From: Tribonema minus
Taxonomy: Eukaryota; Sar; Xanthophyceae; Tribonematales; Tribonemataceae
Assembly: GCA_017506865.1 (NCBI GenBank)
Contig: JAFCMP010000004.1
Location: 372,001-436,000, forward strand
DNA length: 64,000 bases
Direction: 5' to 3'
The notes below the pieces were generated by a model, which ran no database searches, was not told the origin of the DNA, and worked only from the letters and a program-made list of their open reading frames with translations. Below are positions 1 through 64,000 of this stretch, piece after piece (position 1 is the stretch's first letter; each line of letters starts with the position of its first letter). The position numbers and the translations under genes are program-made.

Positions 1-2788
1 CCTCGTCATCAATCTCGCGCCAGGCAACGGCTGCTGGCTCACAGAGAATCTTTGCAACAGCTGGACAGCATCGGAGCTATCAGTCTCGAAGACTACAGCA
101 GCGACAGTGCGGATCCTGACGACAGCTCGACCGCTGCTTCTTCTCTACAACTAGACACCTCCAGACCGGTATCAGCATGCATATCGGTGCAATGCGAGCC
201 AACCCCAATGTCAGCCAGATCGAGCCACAGCAGGGCGCACTCGGAGAGCTCGTCATCGCAGGCGGCAGCCGCGGCGGACACGGCACGGTGCATTGTCAAC
301 GCAGCAACCGTAAACAACCCCCTCCTGTCCATAATGAACACGGCAGCAGAGGCTGATCACGACGCTCTGCTACTGGCTGCGGAGAGAGGAGATTCGGCAG
401 CGGTGGCGTCCGTGCTGGGTATCGAGGAGCATCAGGCATCTGCGGTGGCGCAGCAGCTGATAGCACCCGCGTTCCATCCGGATGATGCGCGCAGCGCAGG
501 TCAGTACACCATAGCAGCAGCAAACATCGTGATTTGACTTGCTGTGATTCTTTGTCGGCATTCCTTCCAGTATTTCATCACTAACACGAGTAGCATGTTC
601 CGAGCACTGCGCATCCGCCTCAGACTCCATGATCATGCGCGCGCATCATGCTACGGTGCTGCACTGCGAGGCCAGCGGCAGCCTTTCCGCTCAGTGCCTG
701 CCGCTGCTGCGGGCGCAATGTGTGTAGCGATCGCGGTACTCTTTGGGGCTGAGTGTTGACATGCATGACTTCCAGTGAGTGCACTGCAGCGATTGCATAT
801 GTTACATGACATGTACGCACATAATGACGTTGTTCTCCACATCTGCAGACAATTCGCAGCGCTGCATCTCGCCGCCAGTAGCGCCCGCTGCTCATTGCTC
901 AGTACTTGCTGCTAACATAAATGATCGCGGTACATGTTGGGGCTGGTTGTTGACGTGCATGCCCGCACAGACAACTTCACGGCAGCAGCGCTCAGACTGC
1001 TGCTGAGCGCTGGTGCAGACGTCACCCACTCACAGTTTGTGTTGAAGTTGGTAGTAGAGTGTGCAGCGGCTGCGTATCACATCGCACACGCACACACGTC
1101 GCACGTCACGGAGAGAGAAGCAGAGAAGGCTACTGAGGCCGTCAGGGAGTCCGCAAGCAAGACCGCAGCAAAACTGCTCTCACCGTCACCATGTGCTCGC
1201 ATCCCCGTTTAGAGGCATTCACGGCAGGACATGAAGCTGTCACCCCCGGTGCAAAGGCGGAAGCCCCATCCGATCAAACCCCACTTGTCTGCCCCATCGT
1301 CTCGCAGACAACTTCACGACGCTGAACAACGCGGCCAGCAGTGTGTTGAAGTTGGCATGTAGTAGAGTGCACTTCTCATTTTCAGCGGCTGCACGTTACA
1401 TTGCACCCACTTCGCGCGTCCCCCAAGCCCGCCCGCCCGCCCTTGCGCCTCGCAGACGATTTTACGGCGCTGCACCACATGGCCAGCAGTGTGTTGTGAA
1501 GTCGGTAGTAAGAGTGCACTTCTCATTTTCAGCAGCTGCACGTTACATCACACCACTTTGCGCGTCCCCCAAACCCCCTTTCCCCCCGGTATGTCCCCCC
1601 ACGCCTCGCAGACAACTTCACGGCGCTGCACCACGCGGCCAGCGGCGGCCACGCAGCAGCGCTCAGGCTGCTGCTGAGCGCTGGCGCCAGCGTCAGCGCT
1701 CAGAACCGGGGCGCCGAGACCCCCCTGTTCCTGGCCTGCTACCACGGGCACAGGGAGGCTGTGCGGTGGCTGCTCGCGGGGGGGGCGCGGGTCGACGCGT
1801 GCAACGAGTTCGGCGAGACGCCCCTGTTCTATGCGGGTGAGGCGTGCTGAGCACTGTCGCTGCTGCTGCTGCTGGTGGTGCGGGCTGCTGCTGCTGCTGG
1901 TGGTGGTGTTGGTGCTGCTGCCGCTGCCGCCGCTGCTGCTGCTGCTGCTGCCGCTGCTGGTGCTGCGTGTGTTCGCCGGCGGTGATGCCATGTGTGTGCT
2001 TGTGGGTTTTGGGCGTGGTGTGGTGGCAGAATGCGTAGTAGTTGAGGTGCTGTTCAGTACGGTGACGGCTGAGCTGAGCTGCTGCTGAAGTGACCACCAG
2101 TGTTCCGCATGTATGCAGTCAGTTTCGCATACACTCATAACGGACCCCGAAGAGCAACATACTGCTACCATCAAATGAACCAAAATCTGCCACGCTCTGC
2201 AAAATGTTGCCTGCGGCTGCTGGCGACTGCGCATCAAAACAGTAATGATAGCAGCGTGATGACACTGAGACATGTGCACAGCACAGCGTCCAAGAGACAG
2301 AGCGTATCAGGCTTGCCACAGCTCATGTGAGCGCAGTGCTCAAAGTGGCAAAACTGCGGTGCAGGCTGGCAGCAGCTTTTGAATGGTCTACAAATTGGCC
2401 GACAATCTCCTGCCTATCAGATGACACGTGTGAGCTTTCGGTAGTATGTGTATGCTATTGTACCATGCAGATTCGCGCATCTTCCGGCGATTGCCCAGAT
2501 TCCAGTCAACATTGGTGTGTTGACAGCCTGAGCGTGAATTTTCCACCCGGCATCATTGCTCAGCATTAAACACTGATCCAGTGACTCGACTCATTGACTC
2601 GGTGTCCTGCAGCGCGGCGCGGCCACCACGAGATTGCTGAGCTGCTGCTGCAGAACGGCGCTGATGCTGCGGCCCAGAACAAATTTGGCGAAACCGCCGC
2701 TGAAGAGGCGGAGGACGAGACCTTGGCAGCGATGCTCAACGCTGCGGCGCATGCACCAGCGCGCGCTGAGGGGCGCAAGTTTTACTGA
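1..2788 (+). CDS. Ankyrin-repeat protein, 3' part (exons <1-499, 1612-1836, 2613-2788)
   Basis: The reading frame is open from the left edge, so the 5' end lies outside the window. Three exons join in phase (499, 225 and 176 bp; 299 residues visible). Splice sites are a GT donor at 500, acceptor AG at 1610-1611, donor GTGAGG at 1837 and acceptor AG at 2611-2612. Exon 1 is Ser/Ala-rich and ends in one weak ankyrin-like unit (DALLLAAERGD). Exons 2 and 3 encode three good ankyrin units: TALHHAASGGH, TPLFLACYHGH and TPLFYAARRGHHEIAELLL. The protein ends in a short polar tail at TGA 2786-2788. Ankyrin repeats are protein-binding scaffolds; nothing visible identifies the partner. The splice phases and the continuity of the repeat across both junctions make the structure firm. 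The upstream domain is unknown. Confidence 0.85.
849..1611 (+). repeat. Decayed copies of the head of ankyrin exon 2, with acceptor-side intron
   Basis: The sequence around the true acceptor (CAG then ACAACTTCACGGCGCTG, 1609-1627) recurs upstream at about 849, 967, 1306 and 1454. Each copy starts with a CAGACAA- or CAGACGA-like string. The copies from 967 on are followed by shared intron sequence containing GAAGTTGG/CGGTAGTAG, and two carry CTTCTCATTTTCAGC. The two nearest units are about 150 bp apart and very similar; the outer ones are more diverged. Only the copy at 1612 runs on into a full ankyrin reading frame, so the others look like decoy acceptors or dead exon heads. Confidence 0.7.
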
Positions 2789-3594
2789 CACTGCCATTGT
2801 GAGCAGCGCTCAGCGTTTTAAAACATGCAATGAGACATTGATGGTTGATCTTCGGGCAGCGTGCGTTGTGCTGCTCGTTTGCTATGCTGTGTGTGTGCAT
2901 GTGCTGCATGATGATACGCCAGCAATGCGAAGGTGCTGGCAGATGCTCACTGGGCATCTGATGAAGTGGCTTGCCCGCAAGCTGTCATGGTGCATGAAAG
3001 ACACAGCAAGCATATGCCGCGCTGTTGCAAGCACTTTGAACAGTTATTGGGAGGCACACGACTGTATCATAGTTGCAGGTCATAGTTTCAAGTCGGGGGG
3101 TGCATGCGATGCATCATCAGCTGCGACAGCCACCATAATGTGAAGTCACAACTTGATGATGTAATACACAGTGTATTGGCGAAGCCATCGCCTCCATATA
3201 TTTTTTATTGCTTGAGTTCATGCACATCCTTTGCCTGTTTTTTGAGGTGCTCCTGTCCATCGGCAAGTGGGCTGTTGGCATTGCCAAGCTGGCAAGCTTT
3301 TGTTCTGCTTTGAAGTGCGCTGTGGCATTGTGCATGCTTGTCTCATTCAGCAAAACCTGAATGTCCGACAGCGCCGCTGCGGTTGCTTCGCCATTGAATC
3401 GCAGCGCAGTGCTGTGATACTCATCGCAGCCATTGCTTCAGTGTACTTGAGTTCATGCACGTTGTTTTAAGGTGCTCCTGCCTGGTGGCAAGGGGGCTGT
3501 TTTGAATGCGCTGTGGCATTGCTCAGTGTCCGTTCACTAGGTGGCAGTGCTCGGAGCTGGCCTTTTTCTTGGGGCTGTGGGCGTGCTTCGAATG

Positions 3595-3775: not shown

Positions 3776-4481
3776 TTTGAATGCAAGTAAATCAGGGAAA
3801 AACTAGTGAATTGTGCAAGGCCAGTCGATCCTCTGACTTGCAAGCATTGGCTGGGCGCCATGGAGCATGGCACCACAATATTGCCTCGTGCATGCTACTT
3901 TCTCTCAGCATCAGAGCTTTGCCAGGCTCTGCTATAACTAAGAGCAATTGCAGGTTGAGCGCAGGTACGTCTCAAGTCAGTGTGCATCTGTCAACAAGTG
4001 CTGTCATCTTCTGTGTCCACATCAATCACTGATGGTCTAAAGCGTGCGGCACAAAGTGGCATCGGGCATACACATGAAACAAAGTGCCCACAACAGCATG
4101 GTAGAGCTCAGTGCACATGAGCTTTCTCAGCGTATATTTGTGCATGTACGTGTTGCGCTGATGGCGGGGAGGGACGCAAGCACCGTGTCAGCTATTCTGT
4201 GTGCAAAGCCGCCCTCAGCTTGTACATCGATGCTTCGTTTGTTGCCACCAAAGCCCGTCGGGGCTCTTCTGACATGTAACATAGAAGTATATATATATAC
4301 ACAGCATGGGCGCTCGGGCAACTGCAGTTTGCCCAGTGCACTCATGCATGATGAAGGGCTGTCCTCTCCAAAACGATCGTTGTGCAGGTCCTGGAGCCGC
4401 CAGCGGCGATGCGCCATTTGGCGCCACTACAACCCCTCGTGCTGTGCTGCTGCAGAGCCAACGCCCCTACTGCTCTTGCTC

Positions 4482-4955
4482 CTACATGGAATGTTGCTAC
4501 TTGAAACGCAATGCGTTTGGCCCGCCATTCAAACGTCCTTCAAGTTCTTTGAGCGGCAGTCTCGAGGTGCGCACACAGTTATGGCTGGTGGTGGCACCAC
4601 TGCTGGTCTCACTTCTACATAGGATGCCGCTGCTTGACACGCGATGCGTTGGCCCGCATTTTTAACACCCTTCTTCGTGCGGAGTCCTGAGGTGCGCACG
4701 CAGTATGGCTGGTGGCACCACCGCTCCTACATGTGATGCCATGCATGCTTGACATCGATGCGTCGGCCTGCCGTTCACACGTCCTTCTTCGTGCAAAGTC
4801 CTGAGGTGCGGACGCAGTATGGCTGGTGGCACTACCGTGACCGCTCCTACATGTGATGCCATGCTTGACATCGATGCGTCGGCCTGCCAGTGCCGTTCAC
4901 ACGTCCTTCTTCGTGCAGCTGTCTTGATATGCGCACGCAGTCGTGGCTGGTGCCA
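4482..4955. repeat. Tandem repeat, four units of 111-133 bp
   Basis: Units begin near 4482, 4615, 4726 and 4846 with CTACATG/AGGATG-like strings, then GATGCGTYGGCC, CACGTCCTTCTTCGTGC and CGCAGTATGGCTGGTGG. Two of the spacings (111 and 120 bp) are multiples of three. On the minus strand a frame from about 5234 to 4662 stays open across the units and repeats a segment containing PPAILR and RTPHEEG/RTLHEEG. Whether it is translated is unknown. Confidence 0.7.
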
Positions 4956-5387
4956 CACGGGCAAGCAGAGGCTTGGCAACGCAGCCCGCCCAATCTTTGG
5001 CGCACCACAATGCCCTGTCGATCCAAGGCAGCGAAGCTGCAGGCATGAAAGGGTCAAGCACCCAGTGCCATCAGTGACGGGCGAGGAACGGAAGTCTTGC
5101 AAGACATTTACAGAAACAAGGCGGCGTGTGGTGGTGCAGTGTCGAATGCCACCAGTAACCACTTCCGCCCACAACACAGGCCTGAAGAAATGCTCCTCGA
5201 TGAAATGTTGTGGCGTAACATGTGACACAGTCACTTCGGTGCGTCAACTTCAATGGTACCCTTGCGCTTAAGGGGCAGAAACTCTGTGACCCTACACAAC
5301 ATGCAACTATGAAACTCTTATGAAGTGCTTTGTGCAGCGATGTGCTGTCAAGATCAGGTACCCGGCTGGACCAAGGTATACTCACCT

Positions 5388-5840
5388 CTGGCATCCTCAG
5401 CCTCCATATGCTCAATCACCACAAGAACGCGCATAATCATGCAGCCACCAGCCAGATTAGTACGTGTAGAGGTGCAGTATCAAATGCGCGCCATCGTGAC
5501 CTCGGCCATGACCAAAGCCTGAAGCGATGCAACATCATGTACTTCGTATGTACCTTCAAGTTTCACTTGAAGTTGTATTTACCTCTGGCATCCTCGGCCT
5601 TCGTGTGCTCAATCACTGCCAGAATGCGCATGACCAGCCACCAGCCAGACTAATACATGCAGTGGTGCAGTATTAAATGCGCGCCATCGGAACATCGGCC
5701 GTGCCCAAAGCCTGACGCGACGCAACATCATGCATGTACCTCAAGTGTTCCTTGAAGTTGTACTTGCCTCTGGCATCCTCGGCCTTCACGTGCTCAATGA
5801 CCGCCAGCAGGCGCGTGACCAGCCAGTCTGGAACGCCACG
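5388..5840 (-). repeat. Exon tail of gene X present three times (period about 190 bp)
   Basis: The end of gene X exon 3 with its donor and about 120 bp of intron occurs three times. The exon-end sequence (minus strand GATGCCAGAG) is followed by GCAAGT at 5767 in the copy attached to the full exon, by GTAAAT in the middle copy (about 5585) and by GTGAGT in the outer copy (about 5390). Shared flanks include CATCGGCCGTG- and CAAAGCCTGA-like strings. The outer copies are exon edges without exon bodies. Confidence 0.75.
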
Positions 5841-7734: not shown

Positions 7735-8176
7735 CTGCAGAGCCTTGCCATGGTGCGCCAAGTGAGCGCTCAGGCCAAGTACACCCTGTTCAGTAAAGTT
7801 GATAGTTGCTGCTGATGACGCTGGTCACCACTCTCTTGTGTAAGGCATATGGCTCGCTCTGGGTATTCCTGTTACAGAAATGATTATTATTCTAGCATTT
7901 GTGGCTACCAGCAATGCTGCAGGAAAAGCTAACACAGGTCTGCTCTCCGTCCAGCTTGTGCACGCACTTCGTTGCACTGCACGTGGAAATATTTACTGTG
8001 CGCACTGCTGCAACAGGCTGGAGTCTCAGCTCGTTCAACTTGTTATTACTGCCAAACTCAAAATGCGACTGGATGCTGTCGTCTGCCCTTGCAGTGGCCC
8101 TGCCAGTAGCCATGTCACGTGGTGGCACTCAGGCTGCTACTCCTGAGCATCATGATGCGAAGGCTTGAAGCTGCAG

Positions 8177-14900: not shown

Positions 14901-17900
14901 CTGGCACACGCACTGTAGCTACAGCAGACACCTCTCTCTGGTGTGCAACCTCAAGTTCAAGTTGAGGTTTGACGCACTATGCCCTCGTCTACTAGTAGGC
15001 GCTCAGGGTTAAGGGCAGGGTTAGAAAGAGGGTCAGGATCAGGTGTAGGAGCTCGAGGCCACGACGACGACGAGGGTGGCGGTTACACGTGCACAAATTG
15101 TGAAGTGGTGATGGCAGACACCTCTGATGATGGCGGCAGCGGTGCTGACGAGGCTGCTGTACCTGCAACAATTCCTGTCACAGACCACTGCTGCCTGTGC
15201 AGCCATCCATCGGCTGTGTGGCCATCCATCGGTGTCGAAGAAAAATGCGCGTGCACAGAATAAATTTAAACGATCATTGGTTGAAGTTCGGCTTAATTGA
15301 TCATCGAAGGCGAGGGCGGCGTGCCGACCTGTGCAGCAAGGGGGACTGATGCGGCGTTGCCCAAACTGCCGTGTCAAGCAATCCGTGGGCATTTGCAAAG
15401 GGGTCAGGCGTGAGGTCGCTCAAAACTTGAAGCACGTGCCAGTTCCTGGTGCTGCTGTCTCGCTGCTGCTGTCAGCGCCAGCAAAGGAACGCAGTTAACT
15501 GGTCTACGACAACACCGTATTTGCGGCGTATTTGCTCACACAGATACGTATTTAAATACGTACATACGCCCCCGTACTTAAGTACGCATACGGAGTTTTG
15601 CAACCCTAATAATAGCACACTGAGCACATAATAATACAACACCGCTGGTGGCACTCAAACTTTAGCGTACGCGATGAGCCTTGCAGTGTGCAGTGTGCGT
15701 TCAGCAGCTTTCTCCTCGAGTTGCAGTCCTTCCATCGAACGGTCTGTGACTGAGGACGGCTTAGTGGCAACGACATGCTTGTTCTTGCATTGCCTTGCTC
15801 TGGATTCTTTGCAAGTGCGGTGTCAGGGCAGACTTAGCATCTGGTGATTGCTGAGGGACGTTGCTGCTCTTGGCGCAAGCACAACTCGCAGATAGTTAGC
15901 TGTGCATGACCATGTGTTGTCACACTGCTCAGTGAAGTGCAGCGCCTTGCAGCGTCTACATCACGGACTCTTCTACTTGCAGTAGTCTTCGCTGAAGTGA
16001 CTGCAAAGCAAATCTTGATTTAATCATCATGAATAAAAAAACACAGGACTTCGAAATCAATGATTTCAAGACACACTTCTGTATGTGCTTGGAACATTAT
16101 GTAGCTTTTCTGCCTCTTAATGCTGGCAGGCGCATATCTCAAGGACGGCAACCGAGTGGTCTGCGAGCCGCTCAACCCAACTAAGTCTTTGCTGAAGTGC
16201 TTGTAGCAGGCATGCCTACAGTTGTCTTCGAAGCATGATTGCAAAACAAAATTTAAGGGAATAGTTACAGATCAAGACTTCAATCATGTTCCTCTATTTT
16301 TGGGGTCACATCATGTGTTTTTCTGCCTCTTACTGCTGGCAGGCGCATACCTCAAGGACGGCAACCGAGTGGTCTGCGAGCCGCTCACCCCAATGCTACA
16401 TCTCCTCAACCTGAACGGCCGTGATGACGGCGCGCACCTGTCATCGGTAGCTCGCGTTCTGGCTGCCTGTTACGTCAGCGTGTCGTGGCTCAAGAACATG
16501 TATGAGGTCACGGGGCACGTCAATGAGCGCAGCAGCCCACGCGAGCGTGCTTTGCAACGCAACAGCGGAGGTCAAGCCCTACAGGCAACCGTAGGCAGTG
16601 CAGGCAGGAGCCCGGCCACCCTCACTAGACACCAATTGGAGCCCACTGAGACCGTCTCTGACGTCCTGCGTGCCTTTCAGCACCACCAGCATGACTACCA
16701 CCAGCTGTGGATGTCCACCATGGCGTCTCTCGAAACGCTACGCGCCGCTGCGAGTGAGCGAAATGCTGCACGCTGGCCGTGGCCGCTGCCATACCCAGTG
16801 CGCCACAGCAGTTCCTACGAGGGCATTGAGACCCTTGGTGTCCGGCACAAGCTGCTGTTCAGAGCTCGGCTCAGCTCCGCTGCTGCCGGTGGCGCACCTG
16901 GAATGCGTGTGCTCATCAAGTTCACTGGCGCGTACTCACCACAGGCAAGTGGCATGGTGTTTATTAGGATGGTTATTGACTGCTGTCGCATTGCATCCTT
17001 TCTGTTTTCATTTTATCAGTATACACAATGTGTTCCACATCATTTTGCTTCTCAGTGTTTAGTGCAGGCCTAGGGCCTGGCACTTACTTGGGTGAATCAG
17101 TTTTACGTCTGGATGGCTAGGCTAGTTGCATGCCGTTATTGTGTCATCTTTGGATAAATATCCTGATTAAAGCCTGGATCATGCAAACGCAAATACGTGC
17201 TCGTGTTAGTGGCTGCATCCTGTGCTGCGGCGGTCTAAATGTACTGTGGTTTGATCACCCTGCAGCGTTGCCTGTGCCACACATCGCAGCACTTTTGCGT
17301 TGGTGTTGCGCTTGACTCGTTGAATTTTGTAATGCTATCACTCGTATGATCACTTCACACTGCTTTTAAATGAAACTGCTTCACATTGGCACAGCAACAG
17401 CTACTGGCTTCACTTCCATGTCATTTCCATGATGACTTCTTGCTCCGTGACAGGATGTCGCGATGTTCACGCTGTTCAGTTAATCCCGCAAATTGTGTGC
17501 ACTGCCAATAGCAACAGCTACTGGTTTCACTTCCTTGTCATTCCCACGATGAGTGCTCGCTCCATGCCAGGATATTGTTCAGTGAATCCCTTAAATTGTG
17601 TGCATTGCCCGCAGGTGCACGAAGCCTGGGCGCAGGCGGGCCTTGCACCCCAGCTCATCGAGTGCATGCGGCTTCCCGGAGGCCCTACCATGGTTGTCAT
17701 GGCACATGTGCGACAGGATGATGGATGGCGTATGCTCTGCGCGCTGGAGCTCGACAGTGAGGAGCAGAAGGTGGCCTTTGAAACAGCTCGGAACGCCTTG
17801 CTCCGTGCGCAAGGAATTCGGATTCCAGGCGGCGACGGTGTCTCCCGCGCGACGGTGCATGGGGACATTCGCGGTCCCAACATTATGGTGAAGCAGGATG

Positions 17901-18112: not shown

Positions 18113-18329
18113 GAAAACACCCTCAACTGACACATGGCGCTTTTCACCTTGTAGGAATACACAAATGCTGAGTTGCAGCACCAAGGTTGTGCCACTGGTA
18201 TCGTCTGATATCATAAATGTATCCATATTTTCACAGCTATGCCGCTGTTGTCTCGCTCTCATGCATTCTGCTTTGCCTCTCATATCCCTTTGTCCTAGTT
18301 GCAATACAACAATACTGGTGCTGCTGTAC

Positions 18330-21674: not shown

Positions 21675-21686
21675 GTGCTGCTGTAC

Positions 21687-23654: not shown

Positions 23655-24120
23655 GTGACTCTCCTGTGCGTTGTGGAGATGTGCTCATGTCGAGCATCAC
23701 TGATGCACAACACCCAAGCATCGCTCCGAAAATGCTCGCCAGCGGTCACCTGTGTAGCATACTCCCCCTCTCTTTCTCTAGTTCTCTCTTTCGATGCTAG
23801 CGAGTCAGAGCCCTGAGGGGGCACCGGCAGCACACGAGCTGCGAGGCCGCAGAAAGAACCGCTGCTGCAGCAGGTCATGGCAATGGTGATGCTCGACCGC
23901 TGCTGTGCAGTGGCGGCTGCCGGCGCTGCCATTTATAGCAGTACAGCCCACAACATCACACCGGCACCGCCAACATCCACATGCCCTCCAAAACTCTTTG
24001 GCACGGCGCCTGAATTCGAATGCCCAACAACTGCCACCACCGCACCGAGCACTGCCACTATGGACTGCTGCGTGCTACACCCCCCATCCCCACACCAGTC
24101 CCCGGCAGTAAACAGGAAAC

Positions 24121-24320
24121 TCTACGCATCGCGCTTCGCATATTGCGGAACGGCACTGAACGCGACACGCTCTACGCATCCCGCTTCCCCAGCTGTGCAA
24201 CGGCGGTGAACGGAATACGCTCTACGCATCGCGCTTGTCCAACTGCGCAACGGCGGAGAACGGTACACGCTCTACGCATCGCGCTTGCCGAACTGCGCGA
24301 CCGCCAGCGCGTGCGCGCAC
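24121..24320 (-). repeat. Four 50-bp tandem units covering the acyltransferase stop codon
   Basis: Units are exactly 50 bp apart, each with TCTACGCATC (24121, 24171, 24221, 24271). The 24271 unit contains the true stop (TAG, minus, 24274-24272) and the last codons of the acyltransferase. Each downstream unit again encodes an AV.Q..KRDA-like peptide and a TAG in the same relative frame. Confidence 0.9.
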
Positions 24321-34990: not shown

Positions 34991-34994
34991 GGCA

Positions 34995-38961: not shown

Positions 38962-38994
<33 letters not shown>

Positions 38995-40881: not shown

Positions 40882-41097
40882 GGTGGTATTGTGGGGAGTG
40901 AGCAAGGACTATCATGATGCCTGCACAGACAGGGGGCTGAATGTCAGCAACGAAGACCGCAACTCATCGGTCTGGAAACACTCATCGGTCTGGAAACACA
41001 TCAGTCTTCATTGGTCTTTGTTGCGGTCTTCATTGCTGACATTCAGCCCCCTGCCTGTGCAGTCATAGTCCTTGATCACTCCATAGTGCCACCACAC
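40882..41097. repeat. Long inverted repeat (foldback) with about 80-bp arms
   Basis: The left arm 40882-40963 and right arm 41023-41097 are reverse complements with few mismatches and a small bulge (shared AGGGGGCTGAATGTCAGCAA). The loop of about 60 bp holds two copies of TCATCGGTCTGGAAACAC. The RNA of either strand would form a long hairpin. It fits a foldback element or MITE, or a small-RNA precursor. No target-site duplication was identified. Confidence 0.85.
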
Positions 41098-41298
41098 CTC
41101 ATTGAAATGTGCGCTTGGCACGTGTCTTCGACTTGGGCAAGCAGTTGCTGAAAGCCATGAACATACTATTGGTACATTGCGCCCTTGCAATTCCCAAGCG
41201 CATGAGCTCCACCACTGTAAATTTGACACGTAAACGGCCCACTCACCACTATGTAGCAGTATTTTATTTATTGATTCTCGCTCGGGGGGTGAAAAGGC

Positions 41299-45000: not shown

Positions 45001-48000
45001 TCGCTTATTACTGCATAGTCATTGTGACGAAATTGAAGAGCATGGTGGGCTTCATGCCATCAGCGTGACTGGGAAACTGGGATGAGGACTGGGGTTAGGG
45101 TTGAGCGGTCAGAGGTGAATAGGGCCGACAAACTTGACTTCCTTAGCATACCACATACTCGGTACGCATTCCCACTCATAGAACTCGCCATGTCTCAAAC
45201 TTGGCATGCAGAATCGGTGTACTTGTGATTTGAGAAGCCTGTTATTGGTGTGGTAGACATCATGGAAAACAACGCGCCGGGCCCGCCCTGAATAACAAGA
45301 AGAATCGCCCCTTGACATCCCTTAATAAGACTTGCCCTCTGCATCGTAGGCAATGTGCCGCGCACTGTCACTCTAGGGATAGCTTGACGTGCAACAGCAA
45401 ATTGTGTGGTTTATGCCGAAGCAGCCACCGTAGCTGCAGCAAGCCCTCGCCTTGGAGCTGAGCGCGCATGTTTGTGGAAAAATAAAAGGAAACAACAATG
45501 TACCAGACGTATTAATCAGACAAGTCCCAAGCTGGGTACGTGGGTACCTTGGGCATGTGGACGTCCAGGATGCAGACGTCAAAGGGCCCATCCTGCAAGA
45601 GCAGGCGCGGTTCAGGGCAACAGCGAAAACAAGATGGCATAAGGAGGAGAACGCATATTCACCACGTTCTCCACAATGCGAGCGCACATCAGCACGCACA
45701 AACAATGGTCTTCACGGAAGACGCTGCACTCAAGCGATGTGCCACAAAACGCGGGTGGTGCTGCCTAACCCTGACCCTAGGCCATGGATTCAGTGCTCAA
45801 CAGGCATGATGCTGGGCTGGCATTTGCAGCTAGTGGCAGCACCTGTTCGCGCCAGCAGTACAAAGCGAACAGCGTGTAGATACGTCCAATGCCATAGCAG
45901 GATGCATCTCTCAAGATGTCATAGAAGTCTTTCTTGAAGTACGTGTTTGCACCCCTGTCAGTTGTGGCTTTCACTGCAATGCTGTCACTCCTGCAACGGA
46001 TTTCATAGCTGTTTCTGGCACAACTCCGCGCATGTAGCTCATCCTGTATAATCATACACTGAAGTGCTGACAACACCTCTGCCTACTGTTGGTGTGAGGT
46101 GTGTTCGTGATGCAGCATGCAGATGCTTCTTTGCTTCAGCATATTGCTATGTTCGCGGGTGCAATCAGGCCCTGCAATCTACACAACTATGCCTCTTCTG
46201 TAATGTTTCTGCAATGCCAAAAGCATACATGCGCGCTGCAGAAGCATAAGCATGCCCAAACCGAAACAGAGTTGAAGTCCAGGCATCAGCAACCTACAGC
46301 AGGTGACGCACATGTTCAAACTGGTCAACAGCCGCGGCGCCGTCGTTGACCATCTTGAGGTCTTCATAGTATCATGTGCAACAACAATGTTGAAGCCAAG
46401 CAGCAGCAATCTTATGGCAGGTGACGCACATGTTCAAACTGGTCTACGGCCGCAGCGCCGTCGTTGACCATCTTGAGGTCCGCGCACTCTCCCTCCAGCA
46501 TGCGCCGCAGCACCTGTGGACACAGTGCGATAAACGGTTGCTGGATTGGCACTTGTGCGATCACTGTTTGCGATCACTGTTTGCAATGTGCCAATGCGCT
46601 TGTGGACATGCGCCAATGCATTCGAATCAGTCGCCTAATAAAGATCGCCTAAAAAAGACAGCTCACATTGCAACAAATGGGTACTGCCAGTCACATTGCA
46701 GTAGTGGTCACTGGGTTGACACTCTCGTGCTATCACTGTTTGGGATGTGCCAATGCACTTGTGGACATGTGCCGATCACTGAGTCGGTCGCCTAAAAAGG
46801 ACAGGTCCGAGAAAATCGGTGTAGAACTCACATAATGGATTGTTGAGTCTGCACCAGAAAAAACTACAGCTACCACACGCAGAGAACGCACGCGCACACA
46901 CACGCGCTCATAGGCTCCTTCATCTACAATTCAACTTGAAGTTGAAGTTGAAGTTCACCTTGCAGTTGATGCGGTTGTCCTCAGCGACCAGCACGCGGCT
47001 GCGCCTCAGCGCCCCGAGCGCGCCCGTCGCCCCCGCCACATTCAAGCTGTTTCTGCGCAGCTCCGCGAGCGACACTGGGTGCTCTGGAACGTCCGCACTT
47101 GCAGTTGAAGTTGATAGGCACAGGTCCTCGGGCTGCAGCGGCAGCGTGCAGATCATGACCGTGCCGCGCGGCGCGTTGTCGTGGAAGGAGACGGAGCCGC
47201 CGAGGCCGTCGGCGAGGGACCTGCGTGGCAGTTACAGGTGTGTGTCAGTTACGAAACGATGTCTGCCTCCGGCTGAGACTGTGCTGTGTGACACATTGTG
47301 ACCTGCACGCCCGAACCATCGCCTCCCCCTCCTGTGTGCCCCCTGCTGGTTCCTGTTTTTTTTGCTCCATTCTGTGCCGAAATTGCTGAAAACTTTTAAG
47401 TACGATGTCGTTACCAGCACCAGCGGCGCAGCTGGGTGCAGTGCAGCGCGCTGCCGCACAATAACTCAGAGTCGCCGAAAAACCTGAGACACATGGAGAG
47501 ACTTGCAGTAGCCAAGAGTATCAACTAACAATGGCACACAGAGCTAACGCTGGCCCCAACTTCGAGAGTGGACATGCTTTGTAAAGCATTGCTGTGGAAG
47601 TTGCCCAGGCCATCAGCCAGGCATGAATTATAGGTAAACGAGGGGAAGTCAGTTATCACATCCAATGTCCGGTGCGTCACCGGAGGGACCAGCAAGCAAA
47701 GTTCCAGATGGCGCTACAAACCTTCAACTTAAGGTACATGCCACATGCCGTTGTAGCACCAATTACATACCATGGTGGCGATTTTGCCTTGGTGATCACT
47801 GATTTCATAGTGACGACCGCAGTGTTGGACAGGGGCACACCTGCATTGCAATTGCTAGGGCGTACACTCACTACGATTCAAGCGCTAGCTTGGGTATGTC
47901 TTGAGTGACACTAATGGTGTCAGCAAGGGCATCTGCTCAAATAAATGAATGAATGAAAAGTATGAATTCATGACCATTGTGTACTCACTTGCAGATGGCC

Positions 48001-51000
48001 AGGCCCAAACCGCTCCCGCTGCAGGGAACAAACAGAACCACCAACCATAGCGCTTATGTATCGGTAACACTCTGTTAAAAAAAAATGAGCTGCGCTCAAA
48101 GAATATTGCAAACAGCATGGTGTGTTGAGTTCAACAGTAGATAGACTGCAGAAAGCGGCGATGGCAGCTTATGGCATAAGCGCCCTGCCAGTAAAGTTTC
48201 ACATCGCCCGAGGCCAAGATGGACTTATGGCGCAGTTGCAGCGCCTGCATGACGTCATGCACATGTGCAAGCCCAACTCTGGAAAACAGCTTCAACATTA
48301 AGATTTTAAAGTCGAAGGTGACGAAAACGATTTGAAGAATTTGCACCAGCAACAATGTCAGCCCTTTCCTGGTAGTAGTCAGATTTCTCATGCGAGCAGC
48401 ATGCAGCACGCTCTCGCACCGACGAATGCACCCACTCTGTGCAATTCGCGACTACCTTTGAAGTGCCAACACTGCAATGCAATACCTATCTTCGTTGTAT
48501 GCACACACCTCAAAATATGCGATGATCATATATCAGTGCTGTCAAAAGAGGTCTTGCGCGCACGTTTACGGTGCAAGCAGATTCTGAGGTCGAAAGTGAC
48601 AAGACAACGAACCATGTAACAAAACAGTGCTCATCCTTTCCTGGTGTCATGCAGCTTGCTTACCTATGGAGCATACAGCTTGTAGTCAACAACTCAGAGC
48701 GCTGGCAAAAGTGGTCTTGCAGCAGTTGTTGAGCACTGTTGCGCGCCTGTTTACCTGACATAGTCCGTATTGGTGGTGGTCAGGCCCATGGTGTGAAACA
48801 GCAGGTCTCGGAATTCATCAGGAATGCCTCTGCCCGTGTCGGAGACAACCATCTTCAACTCGCACTTGTCAATGTCAAGTGCAATCTCCACAGTCACCGA
48901 GCCCTCGTCGGTGAACTTGACGGCGTTGCTGCAAAAGTGCCGGGGGGTGGGGGGGGGGGGGGGAGTTGAAGTGGAGGATTGGACTTGAAAACTGCAAGAG
49001 GTACCTGATCAGCTCTGGTATCAAACCTGATGTCGCTGTCACCGACAGCACCTTCAACGGTGGCTGGTGTGTTCCCGTTAGGCGCATACATGTTGTGACA
49101 AACGTGTTGTCCAGAGTCGATGGGTTGACAAACTTGGTGTGCACACACAGGAACGCCAAGCTTGCTAGACCCAGCCTCGCCATCAACAGCCCGTACTCAG
49201 TAAGCCAACTTCAGCAAGTGTGTGCAAGGTATGCATGTATGCAGGACAGCTACCAATGACATAGCGTTAGTTGCAAAGCCTCGCTTTGGGCCACGCAGGG
49301 GGTTATGTAGAGGAGGGGGTCCGGACTCCGAAGGGACAAGCCCCGCATGTACGCACTCATACGAGAAAAGTAAAAATTACTCAAACGACGAGGAAAGGGC
49401 CGTCTTCAAAAGAAAAGCAAAATAACAGCATGCTCTTATCTTATGGTCGACAGTGACCAACCTCGCCCCTGACCCTGACCCCAACAGCAACCCAAACCGC
49501 AACCCAGTGCAAATGTCACCGTATGACATTTCGCCATACTAATGCTCCAAAGTTATTGTAATTGTGAACACGGTTGTGCCATGCCACTGTACCTACTACA
49601 CAAGCACAACAGACACTCTGACTTGCATGCTGCTCTGCACATGCACTAAGGCGCACCAGATGCACAAAGTAATGATCCAGTCTGCGCCATCAGCAATTTC
49701 ACCATGTATACATACAGTACACTACATACCCTGGCGCCCGCTGTAAGGTAGAGTCACGCTAACCTGACACCAGAAAGGACTTGGCAAGATGTACGTCAAA
49801 GAAGAATCACAACTGAAGCTGCAGTTGCGCCTCGTGCCTGAGCGTCTATTTATGAACAAGCACATAGTTGTGATGTGCCAGCTTTGCATGCTACATTCAA
49901 GAATGCAAACAAGGCCGACGACCCCATACAGCAGGGCATTTCTGCAGCCCCAAGTGGACTTAATAATGAAAGTACATTGTTGCAAAAGCCGCTGTCATGC
50001 TCACCTGACAAAGTTCATGAGTATGCGCTTGACAGCCTGCTCATCCGTGTTGATCATGCGGTGCACGTGGGGCACATTGTGCACCAGCTTCACCATCTGC
50101 ATGTATGCATACAAGGGTGATACGCAGAACTTCAGCACACGCACGCCGGTAGTTCAACGTCATACATACATGCATGCTTACAGCACGCGCAAGCTGTTGT
50201 GCAGGCACTACAAAGACATTGTGAAAGGCAACAGCGCAGCGTGTGCTGCTATTCAACATCATAGTTAGCCTTGAACAACACTTGGGTCGGGGGGGGGAAA
50301 CAGTACACGTGGCAAAGCGTCACATTGCTGATTGCTGATTATATCCCAAGAACTTGAAGCGGCAGTCATTCAAAACAAACAGGTGAAGTTATGATCTAGA
50401 ATGATCCTATGTTGATGATTCAACACAGTGAAAGACAAACCATGCAACCATATTCTTTGCAGAGTTGCCACAGGTGCTACATAGACAATGCTCACGAATA
50501 TCTGCCTGCAAAAGCGTATGAATCACTGCAGTCTGAACTGCAACTGCAATGTAACAGCAGATGAGAGTACTTCTGACATTGTATTGAAAGAATATTCTCG
50601 CTACTGATTACTTCGGGAGCCGTATACACTTCAAGGAAGTACACTGCTTGAAGTACCACAAATCAATACCTTGCTATTAGCAGAGCTGCTTAATGTACGT
50701 GGCACGCTGGCAGACATGGCATCCACGTCGCCACCTCGCAATGTCGATATTTCTCATGCGCATACATTTCACATGCCCTAAAGTACATTTTGGCACAAGC
50801 TTCAAAGCACGTCGCAGTACATATCACAATCCTGCTTACAAAATAGGTGTACCTTGGTACTAGCGAGCTGCTGAAGATACGCGACACGCTGCGGCCCATG
50901 GCGGCCATGTCCACCACCTCGCAACAGCGCATGCTTTTCATGCGCATACATTACAAACGCTTGTCAGTACATTGTTTGCGCACTACTTCAATCCACGTCA

Positions 51001-54000
51001 AAGTATTCATCATAATCTTATTTGCAAGAATTGGTGTACCTTGTTTCTAGCGGAGCTTGCGCATACAATACACATGGCGGAGCTGCGCACATTAAACATG
51101 CTTCATAGTACACTGCTTTAACAACACTTCAACGCACGTCAAAGTACATAGAAGTATCATGATCTTGTAAGGATATGTGTACCGTGCATCTAGCGTACCT
51201 TGTTTCTAGCGGAGCTGCTGAAGATACGCGACACGCTGGCAGCCATAGCGTCTATGTCCACCACCTCACGGGGACGTGCGACCTTACTCGCTGCCGCCGT
51301 TGTCACCATCTCGTAGTCCAAGAGGTCGTTGATCACCATCAGCTGAGCAATGAGGCAGAGTTTATGAACTTTATGAGCAAGCAGAGGCAGATTTCATGGA
51401 TTGCATGAGCGCGCGCGCACTCACATCACAGATGAACGTGCACAGGTAGAATTGAGTGCAGCATGCGTGGAATCACTTGGTGCTCACAAGACAGGGGCGG
51501 TACACACTGATGCCTTAGGCAGGCCGAGGTCGTAACCCTAACCCTAACCATACAACCGCATTAGGCAGGTGTGTGGCCATGGCCACGTGTAGCAAGCATC
51601 CGCTACACAGACTGCACTGCTAGTGGGTGTGGTCAGCATTTGCCCTAACCCGAACCCTGAATCTTACTCTTGCCCCTACCGTTATGTTTACCAATACTAA
51701 CCCTAGCCGTTACCCTGACCCTCACTGAATGGTACTATTTAGAAGTATATATTTTCAAGTATGGCGTATGGTACTACCTGGTGATGGGCGCACTCCAGCA
51801 GGTCATCCGCGTGCGTGACGATCAAATCCGAGTGCTACAGTACTTGCCTAATTCATGCATGCAAATTCTTTGAAAGGATATCTGTGAACAGATGATGTGC
51901 ACATTCTCTGTGAGGGGCCCACTATCTGGCAAACCTTGAAGTTATCATGAGCTGTGACCAATCTATAACACAAGTGCACACGTGCAAACTACAACATTGC
52001 GGCCACTACCTGTTAATGGGCGCACTCCAGCTTTACTTTATCATTGCTCAATGAAATCCACGGTTGAAAGTAGAGGCCCATACGTATAATCCATCAACGC
52101 GATCGTTTCCTGTTGATGGGCCCACTCTCAAGTACTTTCTGGATTGTAAGGCAAATCAAATCAGGCATACTTCGGAGTACATGCAATACAGTAAAAAAAT
52201 GCTATTGTCGCCTGCTGATGGCTTACTGCCAAGTGTATTCTGGGTAGTATGGCGAATTAAATTGTGCATAGAAGTACATGTAATACAGTAACCAATGCTA
52301 TTGTCACCTGGTGATGCGCACACTCCAGCAGGTCGTCCAAAGTGGAGCGCACGACATCAGCACGATTGGTATGGGGGGTATCGGCGGGACCCCCCTGCAG
52401 CTGGTCAGGCCCCAGGTTTGCCGTCATCGATATCAGCGTTTGCGTGTTGGACAGAATGCCCTGCGTGGCAAGTGTAAAACGAGATTGCGCAACATCGTGT
52501 GTGTTAAGAAAGGGACAACAGATGAGGTGACAATTTGTGACATCAGAGTCAGCGGCCGTTCGTGGTGCCCCGAAGTTTGTCTGTCAAAGAAGTTAGCATC
52601 AGCATACTGGGCAGACATGTTGTATGCAATGGCGATGCACAGACATAAATGATGTATACCCAATCAGGATCAGAGTTTGAGTTAAAGTTATAGTTACGCT
52701 GCATCATCGCAAGATGGACACTGGGCCGATGGCTTCGCTGTCGAACTGCCTGAGAACGATGTCATGTGCTCATGGCATGCATCCTCTGGTGCAAAGCACA
52801 CGCAGCACTCCTAGCTTACAGTGGCGTGGCACATGGTAGTGCAGCTGCAACTGTTACATGGCAGGTTGCCAGATTTTGAGACTACGACACGCCACAATAT
52901 GCCAAGATGCTCGGTGATTGCGGTGTGGCCATCTGTCCCTGTGCTGACTGCAACAGCAGTAAGGCATGCAGGCACGCTCAATGTTCACATCGGGTGACTC
53001 TTGCACCCCCGTAGACTAGTTAGTCATGTTCACACATACGCTTATGCAACCGTTACATTACATCTGCACAGCACGTTATGTGATCAGGCCTGATGGGCAG
53101 TCCTGGTACTTTGACGTGTACCTCAAGTATGAGAAAACTTGGCAATTCAAAAGTGTACTTTGAAGTATCAGAATGAACACATACATATATATATCCTAAA
53201 GCATTGTGCTTCAGTGGTATAAGAAAGCGGCAAGGTAGTCTGTGTCCCCATGGTGCTACTATGTATGCACAGACTGTACGTGTGCTTACCTGGAGTGGAT
53301 TTCTGCACCAACCACAACGCAGCATCATGCACACAACAAGGAAGCAAGGAGGCAAAAATGTGAGAGAAGGCCTTTGAGCAGGGAGGATACATGTGCTATT
53401 GTGATGATGCCATTGTGACAGCATTCATGGCTGAAGCAGTATGCCATGTTGCCTTATGTCAAAACCTGATTTGCCCGAAAGTGAGCACCAATATAAGCTA
53501 TGCTGACCAGCGATGCAAAGCACTGCTATATGCTGGTTTGTGAGTCGAGTACTACAGTAGCAACTACAGCGCATTGAGATCGGGCTGCTTGCTGGCTGTG
53601 TCACCACAACAGCACCGCGCAATGCATTGTCGCCACAGGCTCATGAGACGGTTGCAACGTGATAATGTGCGTTGATGCATTTTGACAAGATCACGCTGCA
53701 CATATGGTGGCCCTTCGCTCTATTGCAGACAACGGTTGCATTGCCGGGGACCACATGTAGCATGATACCAAAGCGAGAAGAAATCCTTCTGATTGCCATC
53801 CATGATCATGGCTTCAACGCCGTCAAGACGAGCAAACACAAAGATCCGTGACACCAGACGCTGAAACGCTTCGAGCATGCAGCTTGTGTTGGGCTGAGTG
53901 GGTTATCCATGATTGACTGCAAAAAGCGGAGTGTCGCCCTCTTGAAGTTCCGAAAGTCAGCATTCATGGCTGAAGCAGTATGCCATGTTGCCTCATGTCA

Positions 54001-57000
54001 AAACCTGATTTGCCCAAAAGTGAGCACCAATATAAGCTATGCTGACCAGCGATGCAAAGCACCGCTATATGCTGGTTTGTGAGTCGAGTACTACAGTAGC
54101 AACTACAGCGCATTGAGATCAGGCTGCTTGCTGGCTGTGTCACCACAACAGCACCGCGCAATGCATTGTCGCCACAGGCTCATGAGACGGTTGCAACGTG
54201 ATAATGTGCGTTGATGCATTTTGACAAGATCACGCTGCACATATGGTGGCCCTTCGCTCTATTGCAGACAACGGTTGCATTGCCGGGGACCACATGTAGC
54301 ATGATACCAAAGCGAGAAGAAATCCTTCTGATTGCCATCCATGATCATGGCTTCAACGCCGTCAAGACGAGCAAACACAAAGATCCGTGACACCAGACGC
54401 TGAAACGCTTCGAGCATGCAGCTTACGTTGGGCTGGGTGGGTTATCCATGATTGACTGCAAAAAGCGGAGTGTCGCCCTCTTGAAGTTCCTAAAGTCAAG
54501 TGCGCATACCTGATCTCATGGGAGATTGTCCGAAGCAGCCGGTGCATCTCAGCTTTGTGCTTCAACTCCTGTAGAACGGCGATTCAATCATGGGTTACAT
54601 TCCAGCAGCGAGTGAGTCAAGACGGCAGGCGAAAAATTGCAACAAGCTTTCGAGCACAAGACTGCTACAAGCGACGGTCATGGAGCAAATGCTCGAAGCC
54701 GTGGTGGACTGTATAGCTCTTGATACCACCGTGTAAATACGAGCAATGTATCTCGTATCAATGTACGCGACAATAAAGCCCGATGTTGACCCCTGCAGCG
54801 GCAGTCACCGAGTGTACTTGATGTGAGCGGCAGGGTCAAGTCGTAACATGCCAATACCGAGTGCTGCTGTACAGTGCCTGCTGCAAGAGTACCCCGGTAT
54901 TCCCTCGTGAAGGGACTATTGGTGCCTACTAATGGAAACGAATCAAAAGATCGTAGAGCTCTAGGTGACAAGGTGTGGTTAGCCGCAAGTGCATTCCACC
55001 AATAAACGTGGTCGCCGCTGCTGCTAATATCATGGAGTGTGAATGTCAACATAAGATCAGCGACTGAGCAATGCTGCACCGCAATCTCGTGCACCAGCTT
55101 TGCATCCTAAAGACGTGGCAGAGGTTCAACGATTTCTTTGCTTCCAAGGATTGGGCTCCAGGCACCATTGCCAGCACAATGACGGAAGTTCAAATTGATG
55201 ACGCAAATGTATGAGCGTGCACGGGCATGAAAACTTCAACCTGACCCTGATAAGGCCAATGAGAGTGCAACGACCAGACGCAGAGCAATGGGGCAATCCT
55301 GCTCTTTTAAATGTGCGCGCCAACGGTGTATGAGTCACGCAGTGCTCAACTACATCATGGGATTGCTGAAGCAACTTCAGCGCCCGTGTACACCATCACA
55401 AACACATTGATAGTCCAGGAATGCAGACACACAAGTGCAGATGTGAACACTCCAGGGTGGGGAGAGCCAAACCCCAGATTCACAGAAGGAATCTATCAAG
55501 GCTTCACCGCAAGCGACAGGCAAGGCAAGGCCAGAGCGCGGGCCATGGCAGGTCAGTGGGGGGCACTGGGCTTACCGCTTCGAGCGTCTTCTTCAGTACC
55601 ACGTGTTCTGCTTCTCTGTCCTGCATGTTCTTGAGCTCAGTTATGTCCATCACAGTGCCCACCATGCTACGCGTGCCATCTGCGTTGGGTTAGGGTAACA
55701 ATTAAAAATAGGTGTAGAGAATGAGGGCCAGGTGATTTTCCCTGTGTGGCTGTGCAGTTGACGCAAGTCAGACCCTAGGCCAAACCCTAACCCTACAACT
55801 AGAGAATGTGCGATGTAAACATGTGCGCGCTCGTGCATTCGAGATATCATTTGCAGTCAATGTGAGGGACGACGATACTTACCTACCTACTTTAAAGTAT
55901 ACTGCCACAGCACTCAGTAGAGACGACAATGCCCGCAAAACAAACCCGCGTTTGCAATCTTGTTCTTGCGGCCGAGGTGCACGGTGGCGGAGACCCACTT
56001 GCAGCTCTTGAGTTCTGAACTTTGGAAGTGTAATGCGCAACAGGTATACTGCTCTGACGGAGCGCCGTGCACAGCCTTGATCCAGCCGTTACCCAATCCC
56101 TCTGCACCAGCTTTGACTGAGTGCGCTGTCACCATTGGGTTGACTGCATTGTCACGTCATCATCGGGTGACCTAACCCTAGCCCTAGCCCCAACCGTAAC
56201 CCTGAACCTGATCCAAACCCTAACCCTAATTGGCGGATGTTCACGCACCAGCCCTGTCTAGCCCTAGGCATAATTTAACCCTCACCCTGTCACGCCGCGC
56301 CTGGAAAGACAACAACAAGTAGCCAACAACTTCCAATAGGACTGTCAATTTGTCTCTACTACTTCATCTTCATCTTCAACATTATACCTAATCAGCGAGA
56401 CAGTCATAACGCAGACTTTGTGGTGCTTGTGCTCAGTTCTCTGCGCCTGTGCGACTGACCCGCCTTGGTGTAGTCCTTAATGCAGGCCTGCAGCATCAGG
56501 ACAATACCACGTCTCTTTGCTGAGCTGTACCTCATTTCTTCAACTTCAACTACACACTTCAAAGTGCGCGTGCTCAACCCCCCGCGCTTGCGCAGCTGAC
56601 CTGCATTGGCGTAGCTTTCGCTGCAGGCCAGCAGCATGAAGACAGTCCCATCTCTCCTCGCCACCCCTGTACTTCATTTCTTCCACTTCAAATATCCTAC
56701 TTCAGAACGCGCGTGTTCGTGTCTCTGCGCCCGTGCAATTGACCTGCACTGCATTGGTGTAATTCTCTCTGCAGGCCTGCACCATCAGAATAGTCCCATA
56801 TCTCCTCATGTTTCTGTACTTCTACTAATTTCTTCAACTTCAACAGCCCTGTGTCAGAATGCACGCACCTGTTCGGTCTCTACGCCTGTGCAAAATGACC
56901 TGCACTGGTGTGATTCTCAATGCACACCTGCACCCTCAGGACAATCCCATCTGTCCTCCACTTTCCGTACTTCATTTCTTCAACTTCAACAGCCCTACTT

Positions 57001-60000
57001 CAGAGCGCGCATGTTCGCATCTCTGCGATTGTGGAGCTGACCTGCTTTGGTGTATTTCTTGCTGCAGGCCTGCACCATCAGGACGACACCATGCCTCCTC
57101 GGTCTTTCCGTAGTTCATTTCTTCAACTTGAACAGTGCTGCTTTGGAATGCGCGCACATGTTCGTGTCACTACGCCCGTGCAACTGACCTGCATTGGTGT
57201 AGTTCTCATTGCAAGCCTGCACCATCAGGACAGTCCCAGCCCTTCTCGTCACTCTACTCTGCATGTCTTCAACTCCAGCTATCCTGCTTTTTTCAAGTGC
57301 GTGTTCGCATCTCTGCGCTTGTGCAACTGACCTGCATTGGTGTAGGTATCACTGCAGGCCTGCACCATCAGGACAACACCATCCCTCCTCATCACTCTGA
57401 ACTTCATTTCTTCAACTCCAGCACTCCTACTTCAAGTGCACGTTCGCTCTCCGCGGTCGTGGAGCTGACCTGCATTGGTGTAGTTCTCACTGCAGGCCTG
57501 CACCATCAGGACAGTACCATCCCTCCACACCACCCTGTATTGCGCATCGTATCTGGCTCCCGCCTTGCCCGACTCCACGCGAGCCAGCACCTCGCCCTGA
57601 CATGCACAAGCGGATGATTGGGAACCCAGAAAAGTCAGAAACTGCCTACCATAAAAAAAACAAAGGATAGTTTCAGATTGTCAAACGCTGGCGAAGAAAT
57701 ATGCTTGAGAAAGGGGGCCTGGACAAGAACCAAATCTGGCTCACCAGCATGCATGATGTCAACAACAGCAGCAGCAACGGATCATGCATGCGCAGGCAGA
57801 TGTGCAAAAAAAGCTGTGCTGCGGAAATCATTGACGTCGCTGGTCTTCAGACGAACTGCAGTGGGGTGAACCGACAAGTCTGGGCATGAGATGCGGAATT
57901 GACTCGGGATCCTACACATTGTACATTGCAGCACCCCAGCAGCATGGTGTCCATTTTAGTGTCGTACTCTGCCGCGAAAACCTTGTGTCGTTCTCTGCCG
58001 CGCCACCATGTAGCTCATCGGCAAGTTCTGTTGAACTTCAGTGCAACTTCAACTCGCCACGTCGTCTGGATCATACACATTGTACACGGCAGCACTTCAG
58101 CAGCGAGGACTCCTTAATATCGTACTCTGCCGCGATATTCATTAGCTCCATCGGCAAGTTCTGTTGAACTCCAGTGCAACTTCAACACTTCTGTTGAACT
58201 CAGTTCTGTTGAACTCCAGTGCAACTTCAACTCACCACGTCATCGGGGTGCATGCGCCTAATCCCATCCGTGTAACCAAGCGGCTCGTCCCAGTCCTTGT
58301 CAAACAGCCAGTACATGTGCCTGAGGCAGCGCGACAGTGGAGCAGCACACCCATGCGTCACTTCAAGTACTTGCAAAAGACAACTTCAAGTGTTGCACAC
58401 CCAGTAACAATGTGTACAAGGCAGCGGCGAAGCAGACGGCAGCACGACCATGCTTGAGAATAATGAACTTCAACTGGGGCACACGTCACGCGTCTGCACC
58501 AAACTTCAACAGTTGCTATCCGGTCGGCAGCGCGTGTCCTACCCACATTCATGCATGAGCAGGAAGAACGGCCGCTGAGTGGTGCACACAGTCCAAGGTT
58601 TGTGCATACTTCAAGCAGTGGCAATGGTGCGTGGTGCAGCATTGCGATGATGCTCAAAGAAGGGATACTTCAAACCATGACACGAAGCGCTGTATTGCGA
58701 TGCTGCTGAATAGTGCTGATATTGCGTTCATGGCGACGCGCTGACATCTACAAGGTACCAGCACTCGCCTACTACACCACAGGCCGCCGTACAGGTGCGT
58801 CATTTCAAAACTGAGGTTGTTGATGAAGTTGCACAAGACAGCAATTTAAAGCGGAGGGTCAATAAACCTAAACCCGATGTCTTGGGCTCTCGCACACGTA
58901 CCAGGCGAACGACCACTGCATATTCTGCTCGGCCAAACACAGCTGCCGAGTCGCAGTCTCTCCTTCTCCAACATGCTTCAGGGTACGGTCCTTGAAGTAA
59001 CACATGCTGTTGTGACACTGCCGTGCGCGGTGCTGACGCATCACCCATAGCGAGAAAGTGGCGCGTGCACCAAGCTACTCGGCGCAATATGACTGGATAC
59101 AGCGCCTGTCTGATTTGAAGTTCGACAGCACATTCATTCATCACCAAGTGAGGGGGGCAAACAATACACTCAAACAGCCACTGTGTAGGGACGTCACCTG
59201 TTCCATTTGATCTCGCCAGTATCCAGATTCAGATCCCAGCACCCCAATTTGGTTGTGTCAATCGCCTTGAGGATACCATCCGACCTGAAGCTTTCATCTT
59301 CGGCTGTCCGAACCAGCAAAAAACAACAAACAGCAGCGCAGGCAGTGGTACGTCAGCTGTGATGGCGGTGCTGCTCCAGGCAGAGACCGTGCTACTGAGG
59401 CTCTATGCATGTTGAAGGATCTGATTTTGACGTGGATGAGGGCTGCGCCCTGCAGCCTCTGCGGGTACATGCATAATATGTACACACGTGCTTCAAAATA
59501 TGATGTGATCACATCTAAAGCACATCGAGCATAAAACAGTGGCTCAATTGAATGCTTGTCAATTCGCTCGCAAGCTTTGTGCAAGTGCAAACCCTAATCA
59601 TAGGTTATGGCATCGCTCAGTCTTTGCAACTGCGCTGAGCACCGGTGGCCACGCTTCATGTGCGCAATGGCCAGAGCAGATCAAGGCCACGGCGCTGAGG
59701 CGTCCCGCAGCAGCGTTGAAACAAGGCTCTGCAGTATCTGTCAGCTGTCGCTTTAGTTGGCAGTAACTTTGTGGACGCTTTGCACGAGCACTCGTGCTGC
59801 TCAATAGCAAAGCACTGACATACTATAATTTGCATTGATACCGTACTAGCAAAGTTTGAGATATTGAATCTGATCGGCTGAGTGGATGTTCACTGAGGCC
59901 ATCCAAGTCCACTGCCTGGGTAGGCCACGCCGCTTTCAGCATGGTCCGGTCAGTTTTCACTGAGGCCATCCAAGTTTGTTGCGTGAACAGGCTACATGCG

Positions 60001-63928: not shown

Positions 63929-64000
63929 TCAGTGGTACTTCTTCAGGTCGTCGATGCCCGCGGTCGCGTTGATGCTCATGATGCGCACGCGGTGCATGCT
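63929..64000 (-). CDS. Last exon of an unidentified gene, cut by the window edge
   Basis: A minus-strand frame enters from the right edge and ends HRVRIMSINATAGIDDLKKYH then TGA (63931-63929). A diverged copy of the last 16 or so codons plus stop (INACAGLEDLKKCH) lies at about 63795-63840, and a shorter trace near 63588. The tail duplication parallels the acyltransferase. The family cannot be told from this fragment. Confidence 0.5.
   Translation of the reverse strand, partial: SMHRVRIMSINATAGIDDLKKYH

Follow-up and report, generated by a model that had tools for sequence, protein, structure and literature searches.

The mutational status of splice junctions and the way in which introns grow are open questions in the field, and both are raised by a 64,000-nt stretch of DNA (the window; positions 372,001 to 436,000 of contig JAFCMP010000004.1) from Tribonema minus, a xanthophyte stramenopile. 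An initial annotation of the window reported exons of unrelated genes with decayed tandem copies of a single exon edge and its adjoining intron, and proposed either a duplication process that prefers boundaries or selection that retains the copies as decoys. The question is therefore whether splice junctions are duplicated more often than the sequence around them, and what becomes of the copies. We consider it probable that this genome undergoes local tandem duplication of ~157-bp units, with those spanning a splice junction truly in excess, and that the copies are hidden by splicing and then decay.

Genes and sequence context of the window

The source assembly, of which the window is a part, comprises 158 Mb in 554 contigs. 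A histidine kinase (HK) gene occupies the minus strand from about 59.3 to 44.3 kb, where a profile of 25 homologues matched PAS, HisKA, HATPase, and receiver stretches; its exons were placed with this profile and its splice sites by eye, and some of its exons were not located. Pfam matches support the ankyrin (Ank), kinase-like (APH-type), and acyltransferase (Acyltransf_C) exons, the APH match of the kinase-like gene falling in a later ORF (17333-18109), and the putative exon of gene X is defined only by an ORF and a splice-like end. Apparent GC donors were read by eye at 44813 and 5768, and at oriented positions 280 and 3708 of locus L065. Introns repeatedly contain a TTCAACTTGAAG-like motif, sometimes directly after the donor (46930-46967, ~58220-58236, L048, and L051).

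Several other features were observed. A minus-strand ORF of 1116 aa (18408-21758) has a reverse-transcriptase match of 29.5 bits, the Pfam cut-off being 29.6. Two related single-ORF genes, 28896-30053 and 35948-37094, are 67% identical, the first with a weak, sub-cut-off FNIP-repeat match. Two large imperfect palindromes occur at 39944-40302 (~70% self-complementary identity) and 40855-41120 (~74%), and dispersed repeats of up to 98% identity link 27177-27269, 54923-55024, and 60033-60105; 30399-30734 and 33507-33842; and 11804-11903 and 18326-18425. Elsewhere in the assembly, HATPase matches on contigs C179, C90, C21, C223, C144, and C112 run through several hundred amino acids of frame without interruption and have a bacterial look; these contigs are probably contaminants.

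Tandem arrays of the window

Self-alignment under five BLAST settings, together with TRF, gave 15 tandem arrays with units of at least 30 bp in the window, while Markov-1 resampled sequence (6 stretches of 10 kb) gave 0. The six arrays of the HK span are identical in an earlier, single-setting list; the single-setting self-alignment behind the HK coverage test described below missed the ankyrin pair. An exon edge is crossed by 9 of the 15 arrays, in line with the at least nine exons first reported, although exon numbers could not be matched individually because some HK exons were not located, and 6 of the 15 cross none. Where an edge is crossed, it lies inside the duplicated unit, and the copies are direct and head-to-tail; some copies take the form of spaced short blocks (e.g., 53 bp at a copy distance, d, of 167 in L051).

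All three kinds of edge that had been described (acceptor, donor, and stop codon) were found. On the plus strand, the ankyrin acceptor array (1277..1643) has ~32 bp of the head of the exon starting at 1612 in its unit and decayed copies upstream, and the acceptor array of the kinase-like gene (15984..16393) has 51 bp of the head of the exon starting at 16343, with a copy at 16130. On the minus strand, the gene X donor array (5373..5826; d 193-197) includes 58 bp of exon tail ending at the last exon base, 5768, where the real copy reads GC and the aligned copy GT. The remaining donor arrays belong to the HK gene, also on the minus strand. That of donor 57470 (56412..57539; ~7.7 copies, d 141) holds 69-70 bp of exon tail in its unit, and its pair, when realigned, gave an identity of 0.83 over 138 columns. 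Donor 51199 (50667..51267; d 183) has several copies with ~69 bp of exon tail, and donor 46430 (46265..46480; d 118) has 51 bp of exon tail at 88% identity. Only 12 bp of exon lie in the array of donor 58236 (57904..58247; d 161) and only 9 bp in that of donor 52308 (51977..52316; d 102), which was entered as 52307 in the HK coverage test; a 71-bp match near 51.8 kb (~51808) includes a longer copy of the exon tail of donor 52308. Lastly, a 50-bp unit at the last acyltransferase exon (24120..24298, minus strand; 3.6 copies) contains exon tail, the stop codon (24274-24272), and 3' sequence.

Among the arrays that cross no edge, one in an intron of the kinase-like gene (17393..17609, plus strand) stops 5 bp short of the exon start at 17615, and a young intronic duplication of the HK gene (53419..54498, minus strand; d 539, ~98.5% identity) starts 12 bp past donor 54510 without reaching the exon. 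Another young duplication (8171-8995; d 408, ~98.5% identity) likewise crosses no exon edge defined here, two arrays (4464-4956 and 43635-43987) cross none, and one (31531-32822) lies inside an ORF. Arrays in long ORFs like the last were also seen in L020, L022, L025, and L027 and are perhaps in-frame or low-complexity repeats.

The claim that the unit straddles the boundary instead of copying the exon was borne out in the HK gene, where both edges of one exon were found in 0 of 6 arrays, one edge in 5, and none in 1. Best-pair identity ranged from 66% to 88% across the HK and gene X edges, so that the arrays differ in age, again as had been noted.

Arrays and their units elsewhere in the genome

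The density of arrays in the window is ordinary for this genome: they cover 13.0% of the window, whereas 20 further stretches of 10 kb, with 80 arrays among them, gave 17.1% (from 2 to 42%). The median unit over 59 arrays was 157 bp, and 45 of the 59 units were between 100 and 200 bp, the detection threshold under-representing units shorter than about 100 bp. Of 25 clusters outside the window, 19 contained exon sequence, 4 were purely intronic, and 2 (L042 and L043, with undefined exon limits) were set aside; 3 of the 19 (L064 905, L059, and L052 889) are copies wholly in exon, and L059 and L064, as probable paralogs, are not independent. These two kinase loci carry a decayed exon-tail copy at similar distances (d 199 and 189), and this similarity suggests that the duplication may be older than their split. 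A complete duplication of a dynein donor in L065 consists of 86 bp of exon and 46 bp of intron, a 132-bp unit at 90% identity.

At 32 hand-tabulated edges, the exon part of the unit measured 9-101 bp (median 53), with a mean share of 0.37 and a maximum of 0.66; a uniform share was rejected (P = 5.5e-4). At two more ab initio edges, array ends lay at -107 and -139. Outside the window, 21/85 donors and 12/84 acceptors were arrayed (P = 0.12), and with the HK gene added the figures were 26/100 and 12/98 (P = 0.018).

Coverage of exon edges and the position of array ends

For boundary preference, the initial annotation had put forward a comparison of edge overlap with array density. Run as coverage, this comparison showed no significant excess. 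The six HK arrays make up 24.6% of the span, and 5 of its 29 edges fall within them, compared with 6.67 under random placement (P of at least 5 = 0.86), and 5 of the 6 touch an edge, compared with 3.48 expected (P = 0.14). At kinase-domain edges elsewhere in the genome, 13/59 (0.22) lay in arrays, against an intron coverage of ~0.2. Coverage at these 59 edges was flat at ~0.19-0.24 over the 50 bp of exon next to the junction and on the intron side as far as 400 bp, the limit of the sampled stretches, past which it drops; deeper in the exon it was 0.114 (50-100 bp) and 0.003 (100-150 bp).

Since arrays are long, coverage and array touch are weak tests of where arrays begin. In an end-position test, we measured how far from the splice site each array ends on its exon-proximal side. 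HK array ends fell at -70, -69, -51, -12, -9, and +11 of donors, with further ends between +307 and +570 of donors or acceptors. The homology-anchored sample comprised 71 kinase and dynein edges outside the window; here 16 ends lay on the exon side within 100 bp of the splice site, 0 between 100 and 150 bp, and 11 on the intron side within 300 bp. At 98 filtered ab initio edges from the 20 stretches, 17 ends lay on the exon side within 150 bp and 8 on the intron side within 300 bp. The density of ends in exon ends was thus ~4 to 6 times that in the first 300 bp of the intron in both samples, and a control of 591 pseudo-donor sites was flat (0.010-0.022 ends per site per 50 bp). The combined count was 33 vs. 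19, a density ratio of 4.7 (P = 3.5e-8) assuming a 110-bp exon target and using a statistic chosen after part of the data had been seen, the 20 stretches having been viewed before the formal count. Boundary preference, as first claimed, is thus supported in part, by the ends of arrays and not by their coverage, and the excess over the intron level suggests breakpoints in exon ends.

The ab initio gene finder recovered 21 of the 29 HK edges, a score that is not independent because its training data included the HK splice sites. Our filter dropped exons that were shorter than 60 bp, had low coding scores, or lay more than 60% inside arrays; under a looser filter, 46/138 edges of the 20 stretches lay in arrays, a count inflated by repeat-rich ORFs. 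Decayed exon edges within introns can prompt false exon predictions, as happened with this gene finder inside an HK array.

In both samples the first 50 bp of the intron were nearly free of array ends (1 at the 71 edges and 0 at the 98). This pattern is consistent with a different account, in which duplications arise mainly throughout GC-rich transcribed exons, those confined to constrained exon are purged, and those that extend into intron sequence persist, so that the junction as such would be nothing special. Frequent repeats inside some long ORFs also agree with it, but part of these may be just low complexity, and breakpoints uniform over the exon predict exon shares of up to 1, whereas the observed shares stop at the maximum given above. 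We regard such an exon-wide target as rather unlikely.

Age and visibility of junction-crossing copies

The flat coverage at HK and kinase edges could also mean that there is no boundary preference at all: if duplication were uniform and exon-internal copies purged, copies straddling a junction might simply stay visible longer, their exon copy being conserved and undeletable. Many intron parts do lie near the detection limit (~0.65 identity). Detection on exon-masked sequence gave 11 rows, at ~9 edges, that reached into the exon, compared with 4 ends in the 300 bp of intron next to the edge. Straddling pairs are shortened by such masking, and we estimate that this result taken alone is compatible with uniform duplication.

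To compare copies of like age, we restricted the combined sets by the identity of the intron part. At 78% identity or more, the count was 10 vs. 8 ends, a density ratio of 3.4 (P = 0.009), and at 74% or more it was 12 vs. 9 (P = 0.003). The kinase and dynein set alone was not significant after age matching (4 vs. 6 at 78%, P = 0.27; 5 vs. 6 at 74%, P = 0.15), whereas the ab initio edges alone gave 6 vs. 2 at 78% (P = 0.006), so that most of the signal after age matching is due to the ab initio set. The non-significant kinase and dynein result favors uniform duplication and the combined excess argues against it, as does the non-uniform exon share of units.

Simulation bears on both sides as well. 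We simulated two-copy donor duplications, 70 at each point, using one indel model and an unchanged bit threshold; straddling and intronic pairs were detected equally up to a mu*t of 0.13. From there on straddling pairs were favored, with detection of 0.87/0.73, 0.61/0.27, 0.21/0.06, and 0.10/0.01 (straddling/intronic) at mu*t of 0.18, 0.23, 0.28, and 0.35, an advantage of 3.5-fold at 0.28 and ~10-fold at 0.35, where few pairs are detected. Summed over the simulated ages for a constant-rate history (our own sum), however, the advantage was just ~1.2-fold. We read the real junction excess as ~3 to 5-fold, with part of it due to visibility, and longer visibility may explain part or all of it. Considering these results together, uniform duplication seems unlikely to us, and we favor a real excess across junctions, one that would reflect where duplications arise beyond which of them stay visible.

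Fate of the copies

The exon part is more identical than the intron part in most rows, as expected if the copy alone decays. Splice dinucleotides were intact in 25/37 copies (17/26 donor and 8/11 acceptor), near our own neutral estimate of 0.69-0.77; two misaligned rows, HK donor 57470 and one from L024, in which several units were aligned together and the exon identity came out as 0.00, are included in these totals. The splice dinucleotides of copies thus decay near-neutrally, which does not support the suggestion that selection keeps the copies as decoys or alternative splice edges. A few copies do have an exon part better kept than expected, such as a 52-bp acceptor copy in L030 (1.00, compared with 0.65-0.77 for the intron part). 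Considering the near-neutral loss in both donor and acceptor copies, we find selected decoys very hard to credit.

A model of junction-crossing duplication

In the model that we favor, the genome would gather local tandem duplications with units mostly of 100-200 bp. Among those surviving in genes, an excess would straddle a junction, one breakpoint lying ~10-100 bp from it on the exon side and the other from some tens to ~190 bp away on the intron side. The original splice site would still be used, so that the mRNA would be unchanged and a spare exon edge left in the intron; because the copy is hidden in this way, survivors would concentrate at junctions. The array may gain further copies, which would then decay, and introns would presumably lengthen in this way while retaining fossil exon edges.

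More tentatively, splice junctions could be hot spots for tandem duplication of ~150 bp in T. minus, and a junction-centered process a main route of intron lengthening that leaves datable exon-edge fossils; we hold this to be possible but not probable. If junction-centered duplication were common in one genome, exon-edge fossils would record many dated events, and junction preference, donor-acceptor asymmetry, and the passage from spare site to new intron would become testable. Among the matches listed in a literature search (titles and abstract openings, with most subscription journals outside coverage), none described tandem duplication as preferring junctions across a genome, and none was a paper on the Tribonema nuclear genome.

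Comparison with known systems

Like introners, the arrays described here are repeated sequence tied to introns. In the part of the introner source consulted (PMC9860276), however, such elements insert into many genes, whereas the 141-bp HK unit, the sole unit searched, was confined to its own array: all 8 of its matches lay there in a genome search skipping very common words, and similar copies dispersed over the introns of many genes were not found for it.

Intron gain by tandem duplication has been reviewed (PMC3443670) and, as far as the portion of that review considered here goes, resembles the Tribonema case in that a local intragenic duplication doubles splice signals. The model described there copies an exonic AGGT segment or whole introns, whereas the Tribonema unit consists of one exon edge and mostly intron. 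A closer likeness of segment is offered by the RdRp gene of potato, in which a tandem duplication across one intron-exon boundary gave rise to a new intron, with RNA reads (PMC4974935); there, too, the duplicated segment crosses one splice junction. The initial annotation had similarly suggested that duplications create or shift introns in this genome, and the potato gene is a precedent. Unlike in potato, where an intron was gained, the Tribonema copies sit in existing introns of many genes, each adjoining a working site, and no intron gain or displacement was observed; we therefore consider intron creation highly improbable here.

A candidate for the physical process in Tribonema is the repair of staggered breaks by fill-in. 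Duplication by this route involves staggered breaks, Pol alpha-primase, and end joining; the breakpoints of the Tribonema arrays are decayed beyond reading. Small tandem duplications are documented to arise from such fill-in (PMC8355091), according to the abstract and introduction of that work, which concerns human and mouse cells and insertions of less than 100 bp and whose abstract and introduction mention no junction preference. As in the Tribonema arrays, the duplications described in those sections consist of a short local sequence copied head-to-tail.
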